From Sulfuricaulis sp. (GTDB lineage: Bacteria > Pseudomonadota > Gammaproteobacteria > Acidiferrobacterales > Sulfurifustaceae), in the NCBI GenBank assembly GCA_024654125.1, contig JANLIC010000087.1, positions 1-44,281 on the forward strand: a stretch of 44,281 nucleotides of DNA. Direction: 5' to 3'. Positions 2,700 through 41,028 of this stretch are shown here, one piece after another. Under the pieces are notes generated by a model, which saw only the letters and a program-made list of their open reading frames with translations, had not been told where the DNA came from and made no database searches. The translations under genes and the position numbers were made by a program. How positions within the stretch are numbered: position 1 is the stretch's first letter; every line of letters starts with the position of its first letter.

Positions 2700-5230
2700 C
2701 AAAATAGTCTCTCGCGGATGTTTTCCGGCACCTTTTCCGGCATGGTCTCCGTCGTGGTTTCACCATCGAGACCGGGAAGGGATTGGGGCGTTTCCGTGCC
2801 CTCCACAAAAAATTCCTCCATCGCCTGTGGATCGTCGGGCGTGGTGGGTTTCCCGGTTTCGCTGTTGATGGTGATGCGCACCATGGTTTCCGGTGGCGTC
2901 AGCGGTTTTTCCGGAATCCCCTCGAGCGCCGTGCGCATGAAATCGATCCACACCGGCAGCGCGGTGCGTCCGCCGGTTTCGGCCCGACCGAGCGACAGCG
3001 GTTGGTCGAAGCCAATCCACGCCGTTGTCACCACCTCACTGTTGAAGCCCGAAAACCAGGCATCGCGGTAGTCGTTGGTGGTCCCGGTTTTGCCGGCGAG
3101 GTCCTTGCGTCCCAGGACCAGCGCCCCCCGTCCGGTGCCGGCGCGGATGACCTCCTGCATCATGCTAGCCATGAGAAAGCTGGTTTCGACGCTGAGTACG
3201 CGCGGCGCGTATGCCGGCTGGTCCTGGCCACCAGCCAAGTTTGCTGGGGGGGCGGTGGCCGGTTTGGACGACCACTGCGCGGTATTCGAAGACATGTCGA
3301 CTGCCGATGTTTCACATTCACGGCAGACAACCGCCGGCCGGGCCTGTTCCAGTATGGTGTGGTTGGCGTCCTCCACGCGCGCGATGAAGTACGGAGTGAC
3401 GCGGTAACCGCCGTTGGCAAACACGGCAAACGCGCTCACCATCTGCATGGGTGTGGCCGAGACGGTGCCGAGCGCGAGCGACAGGTTGCGCGGAATTTTG
3501 GCCGGGTCGAATCCAAAACGCTCCATGTGTTTGACGGTGTAGGTGACACCGATCGCGCGCAGCAGGCGCACGGCCACGAGATTAAGCGATTGCGCCAGGG
3601 CCTTGCGCAGCCGCGTGGGCCCGTAAAATTTCCTGTTGTAATCCTCGGGACGCCATTCTTCTTCTGGCGAGTCACCGCCGTCCATGACGATCGGCGCACC
3701 GCTGACCGTACTGGCGGCGGTGAAACCCTTGTCCAAGGCCGCGCTGAAGATGAAGGGCTTGATGCTCGATCCGGGCTGGCGCTCCGCCTGTGTGGCGCGG
3801 TTGAAACTGCTGTGGGAAAAATCAAAGCCGCCGGTCAGGGCCAGCACGGCGCCGTCGTCCGGTCGCAGGGACACCAACGCGCCCGCGACGTCCGGTATCT
3901 GTGCCAAACGCCACAGCCCGATATCCTTCAGCTGTTGCGGATCCTCGATGGCCTCAAGGTAAATGATGTCGCCGGCCTTGAGGATATCCGTTGCCTGTTT
4001 GGGCGCGGGACCCAGGGTGTTCTCGTCGACATACCTCCGAGCCCAGGACAATCCGCCCCATTCGGTTTCGACGATCGCGCCGTCCTGGGTGTATACATGC
4101 ACCTTGTCTTTTTCGACCTTGAACACAATTCCCGGCAGCAGATAACCGATGACGCGATAATCCTTGAGCACGTCGTCCAGACGCTCCTTGTCAGGCTCGC
4201 TCTTGATCGAAACGTGCCCCGCCGGTCCTCGGTAGCCGTGCCGGCGATCGTATTCCAGCAATCCAGTGCGGAGCGCCTTGACCGCGGCTTGCTGATACTT
4301 GCTGTTGAGGGTGGTATAGACATGGAAACCCCCGGCATAGGTTTTTTCGTCATACGTCTGGATCATGTACTGGCGCACCAGTTCGGCGACGTATGGCGCC
4401 GCCGTATCGGATTTAAGGGTGTGCTTGGCGGCGGCGAGCGGCGTCTCGATCGCCTCGGAATAGGCCGCCTCATCGATGAAACCGTTGTTCAGCATCAGTT
4501 TCAGAATGGTGTTACGTCTTTCGTAGGCGTTCTCCGGATTGGTTAGCGGGTTGTCACGCGATGGCGCCTTGGGGAGTCCCGCGAGCATCGCCATTTCCGG
4601 CAGGTTAAGTAGCGGCAGGGTTTTCCCGTAATAAATCTGCGCGGCCGCGGCAAAGCCGTAGGAACGGTGACCGAGAAAAATCTTGTTAAAATAAAGCTCG
4701 AGGATCTGCTGTTTGCTCAATTCGCGCTCGATCTTGAAGGCCAGCAGAACCTCCTTGATTTTCCGCGTGTAGGTTTTTTCAGGGCTGAGAAAGAAGTTGC
4801 GCGCCACCTGCATGGTAATGGTGCTCGCTCCCTGCGACGTCGACTGGGTGCGCAGGTTGTGCAACCCCGCCCGCAGTATCCCGGCGAAGTCCACCCCATG
4901 ATGATAGAAAAACGAGCGGTCTTCAGCAGCCAGCACCGCATTAATGAGCATCTCCGGCACTTCCCCGATTCTGACCGGGATGCGTTTTTCCTCGCCGAAC
5001 TCGGCGATTAACTCCCCGTCGGCGGTGTAAACCCGCATCGGCACTTTAAGCTGTGCCCCCGAGAGATCCTCGAGAGACGGGAGCGTGGGCGTGAGGATGA
5101 GCGCGATCAGGGTCAGTATCACTACGCCGGTCGCGAGGAGGCCAAAGAGGCCGATCAGCGCCACCTGCCACCATTTCGTGGGCAGGTGCTGGTGGGTCCA
5201 GCGGGAGAAAAAGCTCCCAGAATCATTCAT
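2699..5230 (-). CDS. mrcA: Penicillin-binding protein 1A, bifunctional peptidoglycan synthase
   Basis: Class A PBP (843 residues, normal family length) that polymerises lipid II and cross-links the glycan strands at the periplasmic face of the inner membrane. A short cytoplasmic tail is followed by one membrane anchor (about residues 22-48). The glycosyltransferase domain carries EDRSFFYHHGVD with the catalytic Glu near 103, then STITMQVARN and RKIKEVLLAF. The middle region carries the PBP1A-type OB-like insertion. The transpeptidase domain has SSIK at about 488-491, an SLN motif (AQSLNLVAVRL), and GKTGTTND near 713. It is divergent from pilMNOPQ, the classical gammaproteobacterial arrangement, so the 257-base gap must hold promoters for both. 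Confidence 0.97.
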   Translation of the reverse strand: MNDSGSFFSRWTHQHLPTKWWQVALIGLFGLLATGVVILTLIALILTPTLPSLEDLSGAQLKVPMRVYTADGELIAEFGEEKRIPVRIGEVPEMLINAVLAAEDRSFFYHHGVDFAGILRAGLHNLRTQSTSQGASTITMQVARNFFLSPEKTYTRKIKEVLLAFKIERELSKQQILELYFNKIFLGHRSYGFAAAAQIYYGKTLPLLNLPEMAMLAGLPKAPSRDNPLTNPENAYERRNTILKLMLNNGFIDEAAYSEAIETPLAAAKHTLKSDTAAPYVAELVRQYMIQTYDEKTYAGGFHVYTTLNSKYQQAAVKALRTGLLEYDRRHGYRGPAGHVSIKSEPDKERLDDVLKDYRVIGYLLPGIVFKVEKDKVHVYTQDGAIVETEWGGLSWARRYVDENTLGPAPKQATDILKAGDIIYLEAIEDPQQLKDIGLWRLAQIPDVAGALVSLRPDDGAVLALTGGFDFSHSSFNRATQAERQPGSSIKPFIFSAALDKGFTAASTVSGAPIVMDGGDSPEEEWRPEDYNRKFYGPTRLRKALAQSLNLVAVRLLRAIGVTYTVKHMERFGFDPAKIPRNLSLALGTVSATPMQMVSAFAVFANGGYRVTPYFIARVEDANHTILEQARPAVVCRECETSAVDMSSNTAQWSSKPATAPPANLAGGQDQPAYAPRVLSVETSFLMASMMQEVIRAGTGRGALVLGRKDLAGKTGTTNDYRDAWFSGFNSEVVTTAWIGFDQPLSLGRAETGGRTALPVWIDFMRTALEGIPEKPLTPPETMVRITINSETGKPTTPDDPQAMEEFFVEGTETPQSLPGLDGETTTETMPEKVPENIRERLF

Positions 5231-20117: not shown

Positions 20118-21185
20118 ATGGCAGAACTCAAGAACAACAGATTACTGCGCGCGCTGCTGCGGCAGCCGGTGGACGAGACGCCCGTGTGGATTATGCGCCA
20201 GGCCGGGCGTTATCTTCCCGAGTACCGCGCGGTGCGGGAGAAGGCCGGCGACTTCCGCACCCTCTGCTCCACACCCGAGCTCGCCTGCGAAGTGACGCTG
20301 CAACCGTTGCGGCGTTTCAAGCTGGACGCCGCCATCCTGTTCTCCGACATTCTTACGATTCCAGATGCCATGGGCCTCGGGTTGTATTTCACCGAGGGCG
20401 AGGGGCCGCGTTTCACCAAACCGGTGCGCACGGCTGCTGACGTGAATGCACTTACAGTTCCGGACCCCGAAGTCGAACTGCGTTACGTCATGGACGCGGT
20501 GCGCCTGGTGCGCCGCGAATTGGACGGCCAAGTCCCGCTCATCGGCTTTGCCGGCAGCCCGTGGACGCTCGCGACCTACATGGTCGAGGGCGGCGGCAGC
20601 AAGGAATTCGGTTTAGTGAAAGCCATGATGTTCGACCTGCCCAAGCTCATGCACCGCCTGCTTGCCGTGCTGGAGGAAGCCGTGACCGCCTACCTCAACG
20701 CGCAGGTGGCCGCCGGCGCGCAGGCGCTGATGCTGTTCGACACCTGGGGCGGCGTGCTCACCCCGCGCGATTATCGTGTGTTCTCGCTGGAGTACATGGA
20801 GCGGATCGTGCGCGGGCTGACGCGCGAGCACGAAGGGCGGCGGGTACCGGTGATCCTGTTCACCAAAAACGGTGGCCAGTGGCTGGAGGCCATGGCCGGG
20901 AGTGGTTGCGATGCGCTGGGTGTGGACTGGACCACTGACCTCTATGATGCGCGAGCGCGCGTCGGCCACAGCGTGTCCCTACAGGGCAACATGGACCCGT
21001 CCATGCTGTATGCCTCGGACGAGCGCCTGCGCGAGGAAATTGGTTCCGTCCTGGATAGTTACGGCCGCGGCAGCGGACATGTTTTCAATCTGGGGCACGG
21101 AATTCATCCGCACGTCAATCCGGATAAGGTCGCGGTTATGGTGGACGCCGTGCATGAGTTGAGCCGCCCCTATCATCAGAATTAA
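20118..21185 (+). CDS. hemE: Uroporphyrinogen decarboxylase
   Basis: Removes four carboxyl groups from uroporphyrinogen III to give coproporphyrinogen III in haem synthesis. At 355 residues it is typical. The N-terminal signature [14 protein letters not shown] carries the substrate-binding Arg27 and Arg31. The catalytic Asp lies in [13 protein letters not shown]. Also seen are [26 protein letters not shown] and HVFNLGHGI. The start abuts the inverted repeat at 19997-20114, so no standard ribosome site is visible other than GGTGAAA at the end of the repeat. Haem supply suits an organism rich in c-type cytochromes. Confidence 0.97.
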
Positions 21186-21256
21186 CCCGGCATGGATCAC
21201 GGACGTTGTCCGTTCGAGAAGGCCATCCTAGCCGCCGGATCCCGTGGCGCAGGGCG

Positions 21257-21291
21257 ACTCCCTTCCGAGGCGAAGCTCCTTCGAAGGGAGT
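21257..21291. repeat. Hairpin unit 1 of the 21.2-21.6 kb cluster
   Basis: CTCCCTTC (21258-21265) pairs with GAAGGGAG (21283-21290), closed further by A-T at the outside. The 17-nt loop is CGAGGCGAAGCTCCTTC. Compared with the unit at 21380-21413, the loop matches at 14 of 17 positions and two stem pairs differ on both sides so that pairing is kept. Confidence 0.7.
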
Positions 21292-21334
21292 ACACCGGGC
21301 CGTCACAAGAGACATCATTCATTGAGTCGCACTG

Positions 21335-21376
21335 GCCGCCACCGCCGAAAGAGCTCACGCCTCGGGCGGTGACGGC
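21335..21376. repeat. Hairpin unit 2 (opposite orientation)
   Basis: GCCG plus CACCGCC (21335-21346) pairs with GGCGGTG plus CGGC (21365-21376) with one mismatch. The loop region holds GAAAGAGCTCACGCCTCGG, the reverse-complement type of the core seen in units 1 and 3. Confidence 0.65.
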
Positions 21377-21379
21377 GCG

Positions 21380-21413
21380 ACTCCGTCCCGTGGCGCAGCT
21401 CTTTCGGACGGAG
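21380..21413. repeat. Hairpin unit 3 of the cluster
   Basis: CTCCGTCC (21381-21388) pairs with GGACGGAG (21406-21413); the 17-nt loop is CGTGGCGCAGCTCTTTC. Stem pairs 5 and 7 are G-C and C-G where unit 1 has C-G and T-A. Confidence 0.7.
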
Positions 21414-21418
21414 GAAGC

Positions 21419-21499
21419 GGGGCTGCCATTCCAGAGCCTCACTCCTTGAGTCGCCGGCTGCCTTCTCCGAAAGCCTTCGTCTCGGGATCTGGCAGCCCC
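21419..21499. repeat. Unit 4: long-range stem with a core copy inside
   Basis: GGGGCTGCCA (21419-21428) is the exact complement of TGGCAGCCCC (21490-21499). An alternative inner partner GGCTGCC lies at 21456-21462. The enclosed core copy CCGAAAGCCTTCGTCTCGGG sits at 21467-21486. Confidence 0.55.
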
Positions 21500-21552
21500 T
21501 TCGGAGACGGCGGCAGTAGCGCCCAAGGAAACAGGGTTCTTTGCGGCTACTT

Positions 21553-21606
21553 GCGCCCATTGCCGAAGAAGCGTTCGCCTCGGGCACCGGGCGCTAGCGC
21601 CCGGTG
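21553..21606. repeat. Unit 5 plus a perfect 22-nt palindrome
   Basis: GCGCCC (21553-21558) pairs with GGGCGC (21589-21594) around a core copy CCGAAGAAGCGTTCGCCTCG. The right side also belongs to a perfect palindrome, CACCGGGCGCT and AGCGCCCGGTG (21585-21606), so two structures compete. Confidence 0.55.
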
Positions 21607-21646
21607 TGCCTGCGAGCTGGCCACGCGTTTTTCTGTGGCGGAACGC

Positions 21647-21979
21647 ATGGGGGTGAATTGCCGCTCCGACATCGCCCGTAACAACTGCATCACACTGCTG
21701 GCGCTGATGCGTGACCGCGCCCGCTTTGCGCTCAAAGTGACGGACACCTCCGACCATCTTCCGTTCGGCAAGGAGATCAAGGTCATGATCGGCGGGCTTA
21801 TCGGCCTGTAACGCCTGATCGCGAAGACCGACGTCACCCTAGTCGACAATATCCACGGGCTGGTGCGGCACGCGCAGGATCGTTACGGCTCGCTGGAAGT
21901 GTTGCCATTTCAGGAAATCGTAAAGTCGATCGCGTCGTTCCAGACCAAGCGACGCGGCCGGGGACGTCCCGGGAGCTGA
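21647..21979 (+). pseudogene. Unknown protein frame interrupted by one in-frame TAA
   Basis: From an ATG at 21647 the frame reads MGVNCRSDIARNNCITLL and on through DHLPFGKEIKVMIGGLIGL, stops at TAA (21809-21811), then continues without another stop as RLIAKTDVTLVDNIHGLVRH to KRRGRGRPGS and a TGA at 21977-21979. Both halves have protein-like composition. One C-to-T change (CAA to TAA, Gln) would explain the stop. I do not recognise the family. It may be a decayed gene, or the 54-residue first part could still be expressed. No ribosome binding site is evident. Confidence 0.5.
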
Positions 21980-38284: not shown

Positions 38285-38757
38285 GTCCGTTCTCCTTATT
38301 CAGCGGTCCGATGCATCGTAATCGTTGTTTTTCCGGCTTGCCAGCGGCGGATTGCTCTTAAATCCGTCTTGTTTCCGCTGACGAACGAGTCGCCAGCTGT
38401 CTTCTTTATGCACAGCACCGATCGAGCCATAAAAAATCCTGAATGTCAGGTAGAAAACTTATCGATATGAATCGGCTAATTTTAGTTAACTTGTTGATCT
38501 GAATATATTTAATAGATTAGTTTATTTTTTAATCAATTTAACAAAATCACCGGAAATTGCCGTGCGGCAAAATGCGCACCCCGTCATCATCAACATTGTT
38601 ATCCACAGATTCTGTGAGTAACGTTTGCGTCTTTAAGATACAAGCGGTTATAGTCATGTCATGATAAACCTGTGAACGTGGAGCACAGGTGTTTCATGTG
38701 TTGCCCATAAAAAGTTCAAAAAATTTCGTCCCATAGCCATGTGATAGAGTCGCCGCC
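38285..38757. other. Divergent doxX/priA region: AT-rich tract, DnaA box and inverted repeats
   Basis: This 473-base gap contains no gene. It has an AT-rich tract (about 38465-38545), the inverted repeat TTGCCG-TG-CGGCAA (38557-38570), a consensus DnaA box TTATCCACA (38599-38607) followed by a degenerate inverted box TGTGAGTAA (38613-38621), and ACCTGTG with CACAGGT (38668-38674 and 38684-38690) upstream of priA. Confidence 0.5.
38625..38654 (+). promoter_or_regulatory. Possible promoter of priA
   Basis: TTGCGT (38625-38630) and TATAGT (38649-38654) are 18 bases apart, about 100 bases before priA. The inverted repeat at 38668-38690 would lie just after the start of transcription, a common repressor position. 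Confidence 0.35.
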
Positions 38758-41028
38758 ATGTCCGCTGCGTCGCGAATTTATCAGGTGGCCGTACCTACCC
38801 CTCTGTATCGCGCGTTTGATTATCTAGCAACTGTGTCACTGGTACCGGGGACGCGCGTGCGGGTGCCGTTCGGGCGCCGCGAATTGGTCGGTGTGGTGCT
38901 GGGCGAAGTGGCGCAAAGCGAACTGCCCAGCGGCCGGCTGAAGCCCATCACACAGGCGCTGGATGCGAGCGCTATTCTGCCACCGACTATCCTGGGCTTG
39001 CTGCGGTGGGCGGCGGATTATTACCACCATCCCCTCGGTGAAGTGATTCACACAGCCTTGCCAGTCCGATTGCGTCAGGGCCGAGCGCCGGATACGGCGG
39101 GAGTGAAGGTCTGGATGCTGACCCCCGAAGGCCGTGCCGTGGATCCCGGGGCGCTGAAGCGCGCCCCGACGCAAAGGCTCGTGCTCGAGACACTGGCATT
39201 GTCCGCGGAGGGGGTGGAGGCGGACCAACTGGCGCAGATTTCCCAGCGCTCAGCTGCCGCGCTCAGGGCATTGCGCAGCAAAGGGTGGGTGAGCAGTTAC
39301 CAGCGCGATCACAGGGAGGAAACGAAACCAGCCTCCGTGACGGGGCCACCACTTAACCCGGGTCAACAATCCGCTGTGTCTGCCATCTTGGCCGGCCTGA
39401 AAAATTTTTATCCTTGCCTGTTGCACGGGGTCACCGGCAGCGGCAAGACCGAAGTCTACCTGAGCGTGATTGAACAGCTGTTGCCACAAGGAAAGCAGTC
39501 GCTGGTGCTGGTGCCGGAAATAAGCCTGACGCCACAGCTCGTGGGGCGGTTCGAGCGCCGCTTTGGGCTTCCCATCGCGGTGCTGCACTCCGGGCTCAAC
39601 GAGCAGGAACGTCTGAGCGCCTGGGTGCGGGCGGTGGAGGGCAAGGCCCCCATCGTGCTCGGGACGCGCTCGGCTGTTTTCACACCACTCAGGAATCCCG
39701 GGCTCATTGTCGTGGACGAGGAGCACGACGCCTCCTACAAGCAACAGGAGGGTTTCCGCTACTCGGCGCGTGATGTCGCGGTCATGCGTGCCGCGCGTGA
39801 AAAAATTCCAATCATCCTGGGTTCAGCGACACCTTCGCTGGAGAGCCTCAAGAACGCACGCCAGGGGGCCTATGCGCTGATTGAGTTGCCGGAGCGGACC
39901 GGCAGTGCCGTCATGCCGGACGTGCGGCTGCTCGATATGCGTCGCCTCAAGCCGAGCGAGGGGCTCTCTATGCCGCTGCGTGAGGCGCTGGCGGAGAGAT
40001 TGGAAAAAGGCGAACAAAGCATCCTGTTTCTGAACCGCCGCGGTTTTTCCCCGGTGTGGATGTGTTTTGACTGCGGTTGGGTGGCCTCCTGTAAACGCTG
40101 TGATGCCAGGCTCACGCTGCATCAGACAATTTCGCCGGGAGCGAAATTGGACGCGCACAGCGCGCCCGCTGGGGGCGCGCCAGGGATGGCACGCATCAAG
40201 AAACAAAAGCTGCTTTGCCATCATTGTGGTGCGGACCAGCAAATCACACCGCGTTGTCCCACCTGCCAGGGCGAGAACCTGCATCCGCTCGGCGAGGGCA
40301 CCGAGCGCGTGGAAGGCGCGCTGCAAAAGTTTTTCCCCAACGCGCGCGTCGAGCGCATCGATCGTGACAGCACCGCTCGCCGCGGCGCGCTCGAGGAAAT
40401 ACTGCGCCGGGTACACGAAGGCAAAGCCGATATCCTGGTCGGTACCCAGATGCTCTCGAAGGGGCATGATTTCCCCAACGTCACGCTGGTCGGAATCCTG
40501 AACGCCGACCAGGGGCTCTATGGCACCGATTTTCGTTCGGGCGAACGGCTGTTCCAGTTGATCATGCAAGTGAGCGGACGCGCGGGACGCGCAGACAAGC
40601 AGGGCGAGGTGCTGATCCAGACCTGGCATCCCGATCATCCGTTGTTCACCGCGCTACAACGGCACGACTTTCATGGCTTCGCCGAGTATGCGTTGAATGA
40701 ACGCCGCGAGGCCGGGTACCCGCCTTACAGTCATCTAGCCTTGCTGCGTGCCGAATCGCCGGCGCCCGGCGCGGCTCTCGAATTTTTAAACGCCGCGCGC
40801 GTCTTGGCTGTGCGGCTTGCGCCCGGTAAGGATGTGCAGACACTGACGCCGTTACCCGCGCCCATGGAGCGGCGTGCCGGACGCTACCGCGCGCAAATGC
40901 TGGTGCAATCCAGGCAGCGCGGTCCGTTGCACGATTTCCTGGGACGGTGGGTGATGCAACTGGCCGAGGCGAAATTCGCGAAAAAGACCCGCTGGTCCCT
41001 GGATGTCGATCCGCTCGACATGCATTGA
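38758..41028 (+). CDS. priA: Primosomal protein N' (replication restart helicase PriA)
   Basis: A 3'-5' helicase (756 residues) that recognises abandoned forks and reloads DnaB. The N-terminal DNA-binding domain precedes the helicase motor: Walker A GVTGSGKTEVYL, motif II DEEHD, GSATPSLES, then LNRRGFSPVW. Zinc cysteines are CFDCGWVASCKRC near 437 and CHHCG...CPTC. The C-terminal helicase lobe has GTQMLSKGHDFP and QVSGRAGRADKQGEV. It is about 24 residues longer than E. coli PriA because of an insert between the zinc pairs (about 457-480), which is two hairpins at the DNA level. Start ATG at 38758; only a weak ribosome site is visible. Confidence 0.96.
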   Translation: MSAASRIYQVAVPTPLYRAFDYLATVSLVPGTRVRVPFGRRELVGVVLGEVAQSELPSGRLKPITQALDASAILPPTILGLLRWAADYYHHPLGEVIHTALPVRLRQGRAPDTAGVKVWMLTPEGRAVDPGALKRAPTQRLVLETLALSAEGVEADQLAQISQRSAAALRALRSKGWVSSYQRDHREETKPASVTGPPLNPGQQSAVSAILAGLKNFYPCLLHGVTGSGKTEVYLSVIEQLLPQGKQSLVLVPEISLTPQLVGRFERRFGLPIAVLHSGLNEQERLSAWVRAVEGKAPIVLGTRSAVFTPLRNPGLIVVDEEHDASYKQQEGFRYSARDVAVMRAAREKIPIILGSATPSLESLKNARQGAYALIELPERTGSAVMPDVRLLDMRRLKPSEGLSMPLREALAERLEKGEQSILFLNRRGFSPVWMCFDCGWVASCKRCDARLTLHQTISPGAKLDAHSAPAGGAPGMARIKKQKLLCHHCGADQQITPRCPTCQGENLHPLGEGTERVEGALQKFFPNARVERIDRDSTARRGALEEILRRVHEGKADILVGTQMLSKGHDFPNVTLVGILNADQGLYGTDFRSGERLFQLIMQVSGRAGRADKQGEVLIQTWHPDHPLFTALQRHDFHGFAEYALNERREAGYPPYSHLALLRAESPAPGAALEFLNAARVLAVRLAPGKDVQTLTPLPAPMERRAGRYRAQMLVQSRQRGPLHDFLGRWVMQLAEAKFAKKTRWSLDVDPLDMH
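40127..40180 (+). repeat. Two-hairpin palindromic element inside priA
   Basis: CAATTTCGC (40127-40135) pairs perfectly with GCGAAATTG (40141-40149) around CGGGA. GCGCGCCC (40160-40167) pairs perfectly with GGGCGCGC (40173-40180) around GCTGG. The encoded residues lie exactly where this PriA is longer than its relatives, between the two zinc-binding cysteine groups. Confidence 0.65.

Follow-up and report, generated by a model that had tools for sequence, protein, structure and literature searches.

Dispersed palindromic elements built of 122-nt units in Sulfuricaulis-type Acidiferrobacterales

Just downstream of hemE in Sulfuricaulis sp. (assembly GCA_024654125.1), a dense cluster of hairpins lies on contig JANLIC010000087.1, whose 44,281 nt we call the window. 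We sought to determine whether this cluster is an expanding palindromic element or a multi-hairpin RNA, the two possibilities raised by a first-pass annotation. That annotation had described related cores recurring in both orientations between 21335 and 21606. We found five cores of about 20 nt in 21265–21583, alternating in orientation and each enclosed by its own distinct stem, and a sixth core that is split in two. The five were placed as follows:

21265–21283, + strand: core A of unit X, CCGAGGCGAAGCTCCTTCG (core positions and folds)
21345–21365, − strand: core B of X, CCGAAAGAGCTCACGCCTCGG, reverse-complement type (core positions and chance test)
21388–21407, + strand: core A of unit Y (core positions and folds)
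21467–21485, − strand: core B of Y, reverse-complement type (core positions and folds)
21563–21583, − strand: core B of unit Z, reverse-complement type (core positions and chance test)

The sixth hairpin is that of the split Z, with its first arm and half of its core at 21231–21252 and the second half at 21497–21514. Core positions and a repeat scan thus bore out the recurrence in both orientations, including the assignment of core B of X to the reverse-complement type. The arms of the six hairpins complement each other at 9/9, 11/12, 8/8, 7/7, 10/12 and 7/7 positions (the last pair being the split Z hairpin), compared with 6/9, 7/12, 6/8, 5/7, 7/12 and 5/7 for the best arm borrowed from another hairpin. 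Since own arms complement better than borrowed ones, the stems are unrelated, and the cores at 21467 and 21563 do lie within different stems, as had been claimed. The same annotation had allowed that the cores might match merely by chance. They do not: with up to three mismatches the core pattern has two matches in the window, where 0.01 are expected and none of 100 shuffles gave two, and 1–13 matches in each of nine genus genomes, the backward control giving none in eight and one in the ninth. Folding energies of single hairpins were only moderately better than those of shuffled sequences (z −1.0 to −3.3), and our argument therefore leans on covariation instead.

The cluster is real, but the span first assigned to it was slightly too narrow and begins inside an element of 366 nt. 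Roughly three units of 122 nt, named X, Y and Z, make up this element, with X and Y sitting inside the core of Z. The element is flanked by T (21229) and A (21596) and interrupts a gene:

20118–21185, + strand: hemE, uroporphyrinogen decarboxylase, the upstream neighbour
21192–21229, + strand: 5′ piece of the interrupted gene (MDHGRCPFEKAI..), uninterrupted in seven relatives
21230–21595, + strand: whole element, 366 nt, with ends AGCCGCC...GGGCGCT common to 45 other copies and empty orthologous sites in seven relatives
21230–21252, + strand: left part of unit Z (arm alpha and first half of core A); monomers run straight from here to the sequence at 21497
21253–21376, + strand: unit X (hairpin A-X 21253–21296, spacer, hairpin B-X 21334–21376), from a covariance-model match and folds; occurs without Z in L091
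21377–21496, + strand: unit Y (hairpin A-Y 21377–21418, spacer, hairpin B-Y 21456–21497), from folds and a partial model match; found beside X without Z in L060 and duplicated in L041
21497–21595, + strand: rest of unit Z (second half of hairpin A, mid stem 21516–21550, hairpin B-Z 21553–21594), from a model match
21596–21979, + strand: 3′ piece of the interrupted gene, with an extra in-frame stop at 21809–21811

X, Y and Z have two cores and a spacer in common, but not their stems. A covariance model, R1, built from 29 Z monomers, matched Z at 21471–21596 (104.5 bits), X at 21252–21377 (43.7 bits) and part of Y at 21379–21441 (26.4 bits). X and Y appear homologous to the Z unit, a relationship that sequence comparison supports. 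Most Z units contain GTAG internally, the monomer consensus is predicted to fold back over a long stretch, and no coding role was found for the element.

A search of the own assembly with 21186–21650, which supplies the copy count that had been proposed as a check, yielded 44 matches at E<=10, 16 of these at E<=0.001. The matches were of three kinds, covering query positions 42–67 and 307–412 (one unit), 42–191 and 307–412 (two units), or long stretches. With the same query, 12 of 60 genomes of relatives, the own genome included, were matched. Aligned monomers (35 and the Z of the window) have sharp ends, TAGCC..GCGCTA, and mostly unrelated flanks. A script pairing the two end motifs recovered 46 copies with both ends in 81 sequences, comprising 80 fetched loci and the window; the 35 loci without a pair include empty sites and degraded copies. 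Twenty-eight of the paired copies measure 121–124 nt (one unit), 11 measure 241–247 nt (two units) and one, that of the window, 366 nt (three units). Thus 40 of the 46 lie near one, two or three unit lengths; the remaining six measure 90, 90, 156, 172, 291 and 348 nt. The unpaired ends that were fetched and examined revealed no larger element, but short internal deletions or degraded copies. Forms of about 31 nt, with the left end joined directly to the outer right end, were seen in L264 (~529–560), L255 (~2888–2918) and L254 (~3037–3067).

Within the order, R1 matched in 11 of 57 genomes: eight of the nine of the genus (own included; not G003), plus G012, G015 and G045. A pattern scan of species genomes returned 23 stretches, titled Sulfuricaulis, Muproteobacteria, Acidithiobacillales SM1_46 or unnamed Gammaproteobacteria/Pseudomonadota, and the pattern scan of viral contigs, plasmids and phages found no copy. 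The best explanation is that the family is restricted to Sulfuricaulis-type Acidiferrobacterales, which are sulfur bacteria. Several copies in G015 (L102–L106) have a common flanking sequence (CGGCACCGTAAACGGT..ACATCCCTGTACC), as if lodged inside another repeat.

The interrupted gene, of about 140 codons, is intact in seven relatives, at about 140–160 aa. The window reads ATG..ATCCT, then the element, then AGC, and all seven relatives have CTNRGC at the site. Among the genomes compared (L118, L054, L057, L075, L095, L058, L059), the gene is broken only in that of the window, and there twice: the element interrupts it, and a stop follows further on. Its product (window 21192–21979) is a conserved small protein with several cysteines, for which no NCBIfam match was found.

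Fifteen copies had sites that could be aligned with empty ones at 72% identity or more over at least 150 columns. At five of these (the window, L047, L061/L069, L064 and L072) the empty site has one extra base; in the window's case, all six aligned relatives have one base more than the joined flanks, and the site is TNA, not TA. The net difference was zero at three sites (L063, L073, L097) and +2 at two sites (L080, L098). Other differences were −5, +4, +6 and +30, and the +30 case, L255, contains the 31-nt deletion form. No long target duplication was seen at alignable sites, and flank searches for L088 and L085 gave no clean new empty site. Read by eye, L098 and L040/L080 are located at TGA stop codons.

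The 46 copies have an insertion preference of S-Y|R-S. The left flank is T in 42 and C in 4, the right flank is A in 38 and G in 8, and one base further out G or C is found in 41 of 46 on the left and 40 of 46 on the right. CT or GT stands at the left border in most copies; the base ahead of the terminal TAG is C in 22, G in 19, A in 3 and T in 2. The border T and the element's AG form TAG, which closes an open frame of 120 codons or more on 19 of 92 element sides; the corresponding counts for the other two frames are 9 and 8. This excess of stop codons may reflect selection and need not be targeting; it can also follow from a TNA target together with the loss of harmful insertions. Target sites in L076, L111 and L056 looked hairpin-like, but 46 sites showed no excess of palindromes over 1543 control positions (p = 0.53). 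In sum, dispersed, sharp-ended copies of ~122, 244 and 366 nt occupy sites that are empty elsewhere, at S-Y|R-S and without a long duplication.

At the priA site, X stands alone in L091 (G007), while X and Y stand at the same place in L060 (G002); upstream of the window's own priA (38500–38760) the site is empty. The two Y units of L041 are near-identical, differing by a single base and a 5-nt gap, and in other copies X lies inverted within the second core of Z. Units are therefore gained in place, in tandem and in both orientations. With dispersed copies, occupied and empty orthologous sites, and this unit gain, the proposal of an expanding palindromic element is supported.

Each unit is ordered alpha-A-alpha′-beta-s-alpha′-beta-B-beta′, so that arms alpha and beta′ lie at the unit ends and their internal complements (alpha′beta) occur twice. 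We aligned 16 X units (18 were listed; L085 and L040 were left out). In local hairpins, 92.8% of cells are paired, with 14 both-side changes (shuffle mean 4.8); in the crossing stems, alpha with the second alpha′ and the first beta with beta′, 96.3% are paired, with 10 both-side changes (shuffle mean 2.6). None of 500 shuffles reached either both-side count, although the sequences are related and shuffle counts are hence not probabilities. Slid controls paired at 37–65% (local) and 23–58% (crossing), a comparison that favours the true arms because these were picked from the consensus. Where the two pairings disagree in X, the crossing partner is kept more often: in 15 of 16 units versus 10 of 16 at column 10, 15 versus 12 at column 128 and 15 versus 13 at column 127. 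In the 29 Z monomers, crossing pairs reach 96.3%, with five both-side cells in four pairs (3 of 500 shuffles reach four pairs), and local pairs 97.1%, with two both-side cells, which is weak covariation. The crossing stems of Z take in the terminal dinucleotide; L070 and L097 show changes on both sides. The flank base tracks the internal copy only partly, a left-flank C meeting G once and A twice, and no relation was found between flank base −2 and the internal copy. These patterns support the view that the terminal arms probably change in step with their internal copies, and do so also in a crossing (pseudoknot) pairing that local hairpins do not explain. Instead of selection, gene conversion or template-switch correction of palindromes could have produced such covariation.

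How might such an element move? We lean towards a non-coding, non-autonomous, lineage-specific mobile family whose transposase, acting in trans, would handle each copy as a folded strand. Cores A and B, which are conserved, would be putative docking sites for that transposase, and the cut sites would be marked by the internal sequences that complement the ends, in a role like that of the IS200/IS605 guide sequences. If each strand were cut after the T of S-T-N-A-S and the middle base trimmed away, T[A..T]A would result, and longer copies would form when units duplicate within an existing element. We base this HUH/guide reading on the anatomy and on parallels with IS608 and TnpA-REP, as portrayed in PMC5934647 and PMC8266576. 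Several points count against it: no autonomous copy or matching transposase was found; Y1 genes are present in the element-free G003 and absent from G001, which has five model matches; the flank base tracks the internal copy only partly; the one-base loss is not universal across alignable sites; and by the account in PMC5934647 the Y1 elements studied to date insert without base loss. The ends of IS200/IS605 (as described in PMC5934647 and PMC8266576) likewise have subterminal hairpins and internal sequences that pair with the ends; those sequences also match one flank base, which in the present element holds only in part. The present element differs in being non-coding and symmetric on both strands, in having complements of 7–9 nt instead of tetranucleotide guides, in its constrained right flank and in often losing one base.

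A more radical form of this idea is possible, if doubtful. The element would be miniature mobile DNA of a new class, each of its units having two internal copies complementary to the unit's own end joint and the conserved target base. The folded strand would join both ends and the target, the middle base of S-T-N-A-S would be replaced, and the element would grow as its units duplicate. On this view, X, Y and Z would have diverged into separate species within one system, with nothing but base pairing and the two cores to hold them together.

It is unlikely that the element is a common TA-targeting MITE of the RUP, ERIC or Correia sort, which an IS630/Tc1-type transposase would move in double-stranded form, the internal pairings being only inverted-repeat noise. 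Those repeats, as PMC2229807 presents them, are likewise non-coding, of ~100–200 nt, with TA termini and a long predicted fold-back, and our unit is near ERIC (127 bp) and RUP (107 bp) in size. The present copies are short, with inverted ends and mostly TA at both, and the L097 and L073 sites are compatible with TA duplication. However, there is no clear TA duplication overall, the window's empty-site relatives have TNA, and the outer arms of X and Y are unrelated and so provide no single common terminal repeat. The element further differs from ERIC, RUP and Correia in its crossing internal end complements, its tandem units and its GC-rich sequence. The IS630 DDE_3 domain occurs in only one of nine genus genomes; these genomes, of which the MAGs are incomplete, and the unpaired ends examined yielded no source IS with matching ends.

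Less probable again are REP/REPIN-type hairpins moved by a RAYT (TnpA-REP), a source that the first-pass annotation had suggested. REPIN/BIME repeats, as outlined in PMC3116915 and PMC3733652, resemble the element in their inverted hairpin pairs, mosaic clusters, extragenic spread and proposed single-strand movement. The CT or GT at the left border and the internal GTAG would fit as well, and a domain search found Y1/RAYT genes in eight of nine genus genomes. Yet the hairpin foot at the element's ends has no conserved GTAG or CGTC tag, the unit is 122 nt long, and long conserved loops on freely changing stems differ from the described REP form. A scan of 20 Y1 loci with four end/core motifs gave nothing beyond chance-level matches (three or more mismatches), and no RAYT was flanked by an element hairpin. 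The RAYT at L138 (G004) is flanked by a different dispersed REP (GTAGGTTGGGGTGA; GTAGGTTGGGGTGAGG..) at 1375 and 1994. A copy of the L138-type REP serves as an element insertion site in L083 (G005). In G004 chunks L168–L247 the repeats AATCCTGTTAATCC and CGCCAAGACGCCAA, which have no relation to the element, are frequent.

Least probable of all is a functional structured RNA or 3′-end terminator cluster kept by selection and spread mainly by duplication: stable folds with compensatory changes and the frames ending in the border TAG would suit it, but a gene is broken by the copy in the window, insertion sites vary from species to species, the stop-codon excess has the other explanation given above, and Rfam has no match. 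A group II intron, a tRNA and a known RNA were rejected as candidates, with no tRNA found and no Rfam match at the gathering score or at E<=1, so that the statement that no known family matches holds. For the group II-like source proposed in the first-pass annotation, the search consisted of these Rfam scans.

In the available text of work on bacterial small repeats no such element is described, and that of the genome paper of the two cultured species (PMC5024460) mentions only CRISPR repeats. BOX of Streptococcus pneumoniae, as described in PMC3049150, is also a modular small repeat with fixed end modules and a variable number of inner units, its length at one site varies between strains, and its mobiliser is unknown. 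The comparison covered the modular plan of its boxA, boxB and boxC. BOX belongs to other bacteria; in the present family, inner and end units are homologous and have two conserved cores in common, and the target is S-Y|R-S. CIR of Caulobacter, in the description of PMC2229807, has two hairpin arms and a linker, but another motif (GANTC) and another lineage, and is set apart by that description. We therefore regard the element as a putative new family, and a variant, of small bacterial palindromic mobile elements with unusual internal pairing, to which REP, MITE and BOX are the nearest kinds.

Small palindromic repeats are common in bacteria, and how they move is mostly unknown. This family provides clean empty and occupied sites, copies of one, two and three units, and apparently co-varying pairing that reaches the last bases. 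Thus, end recognition without a conserved end sequence would be directly testable in a culturable relative.
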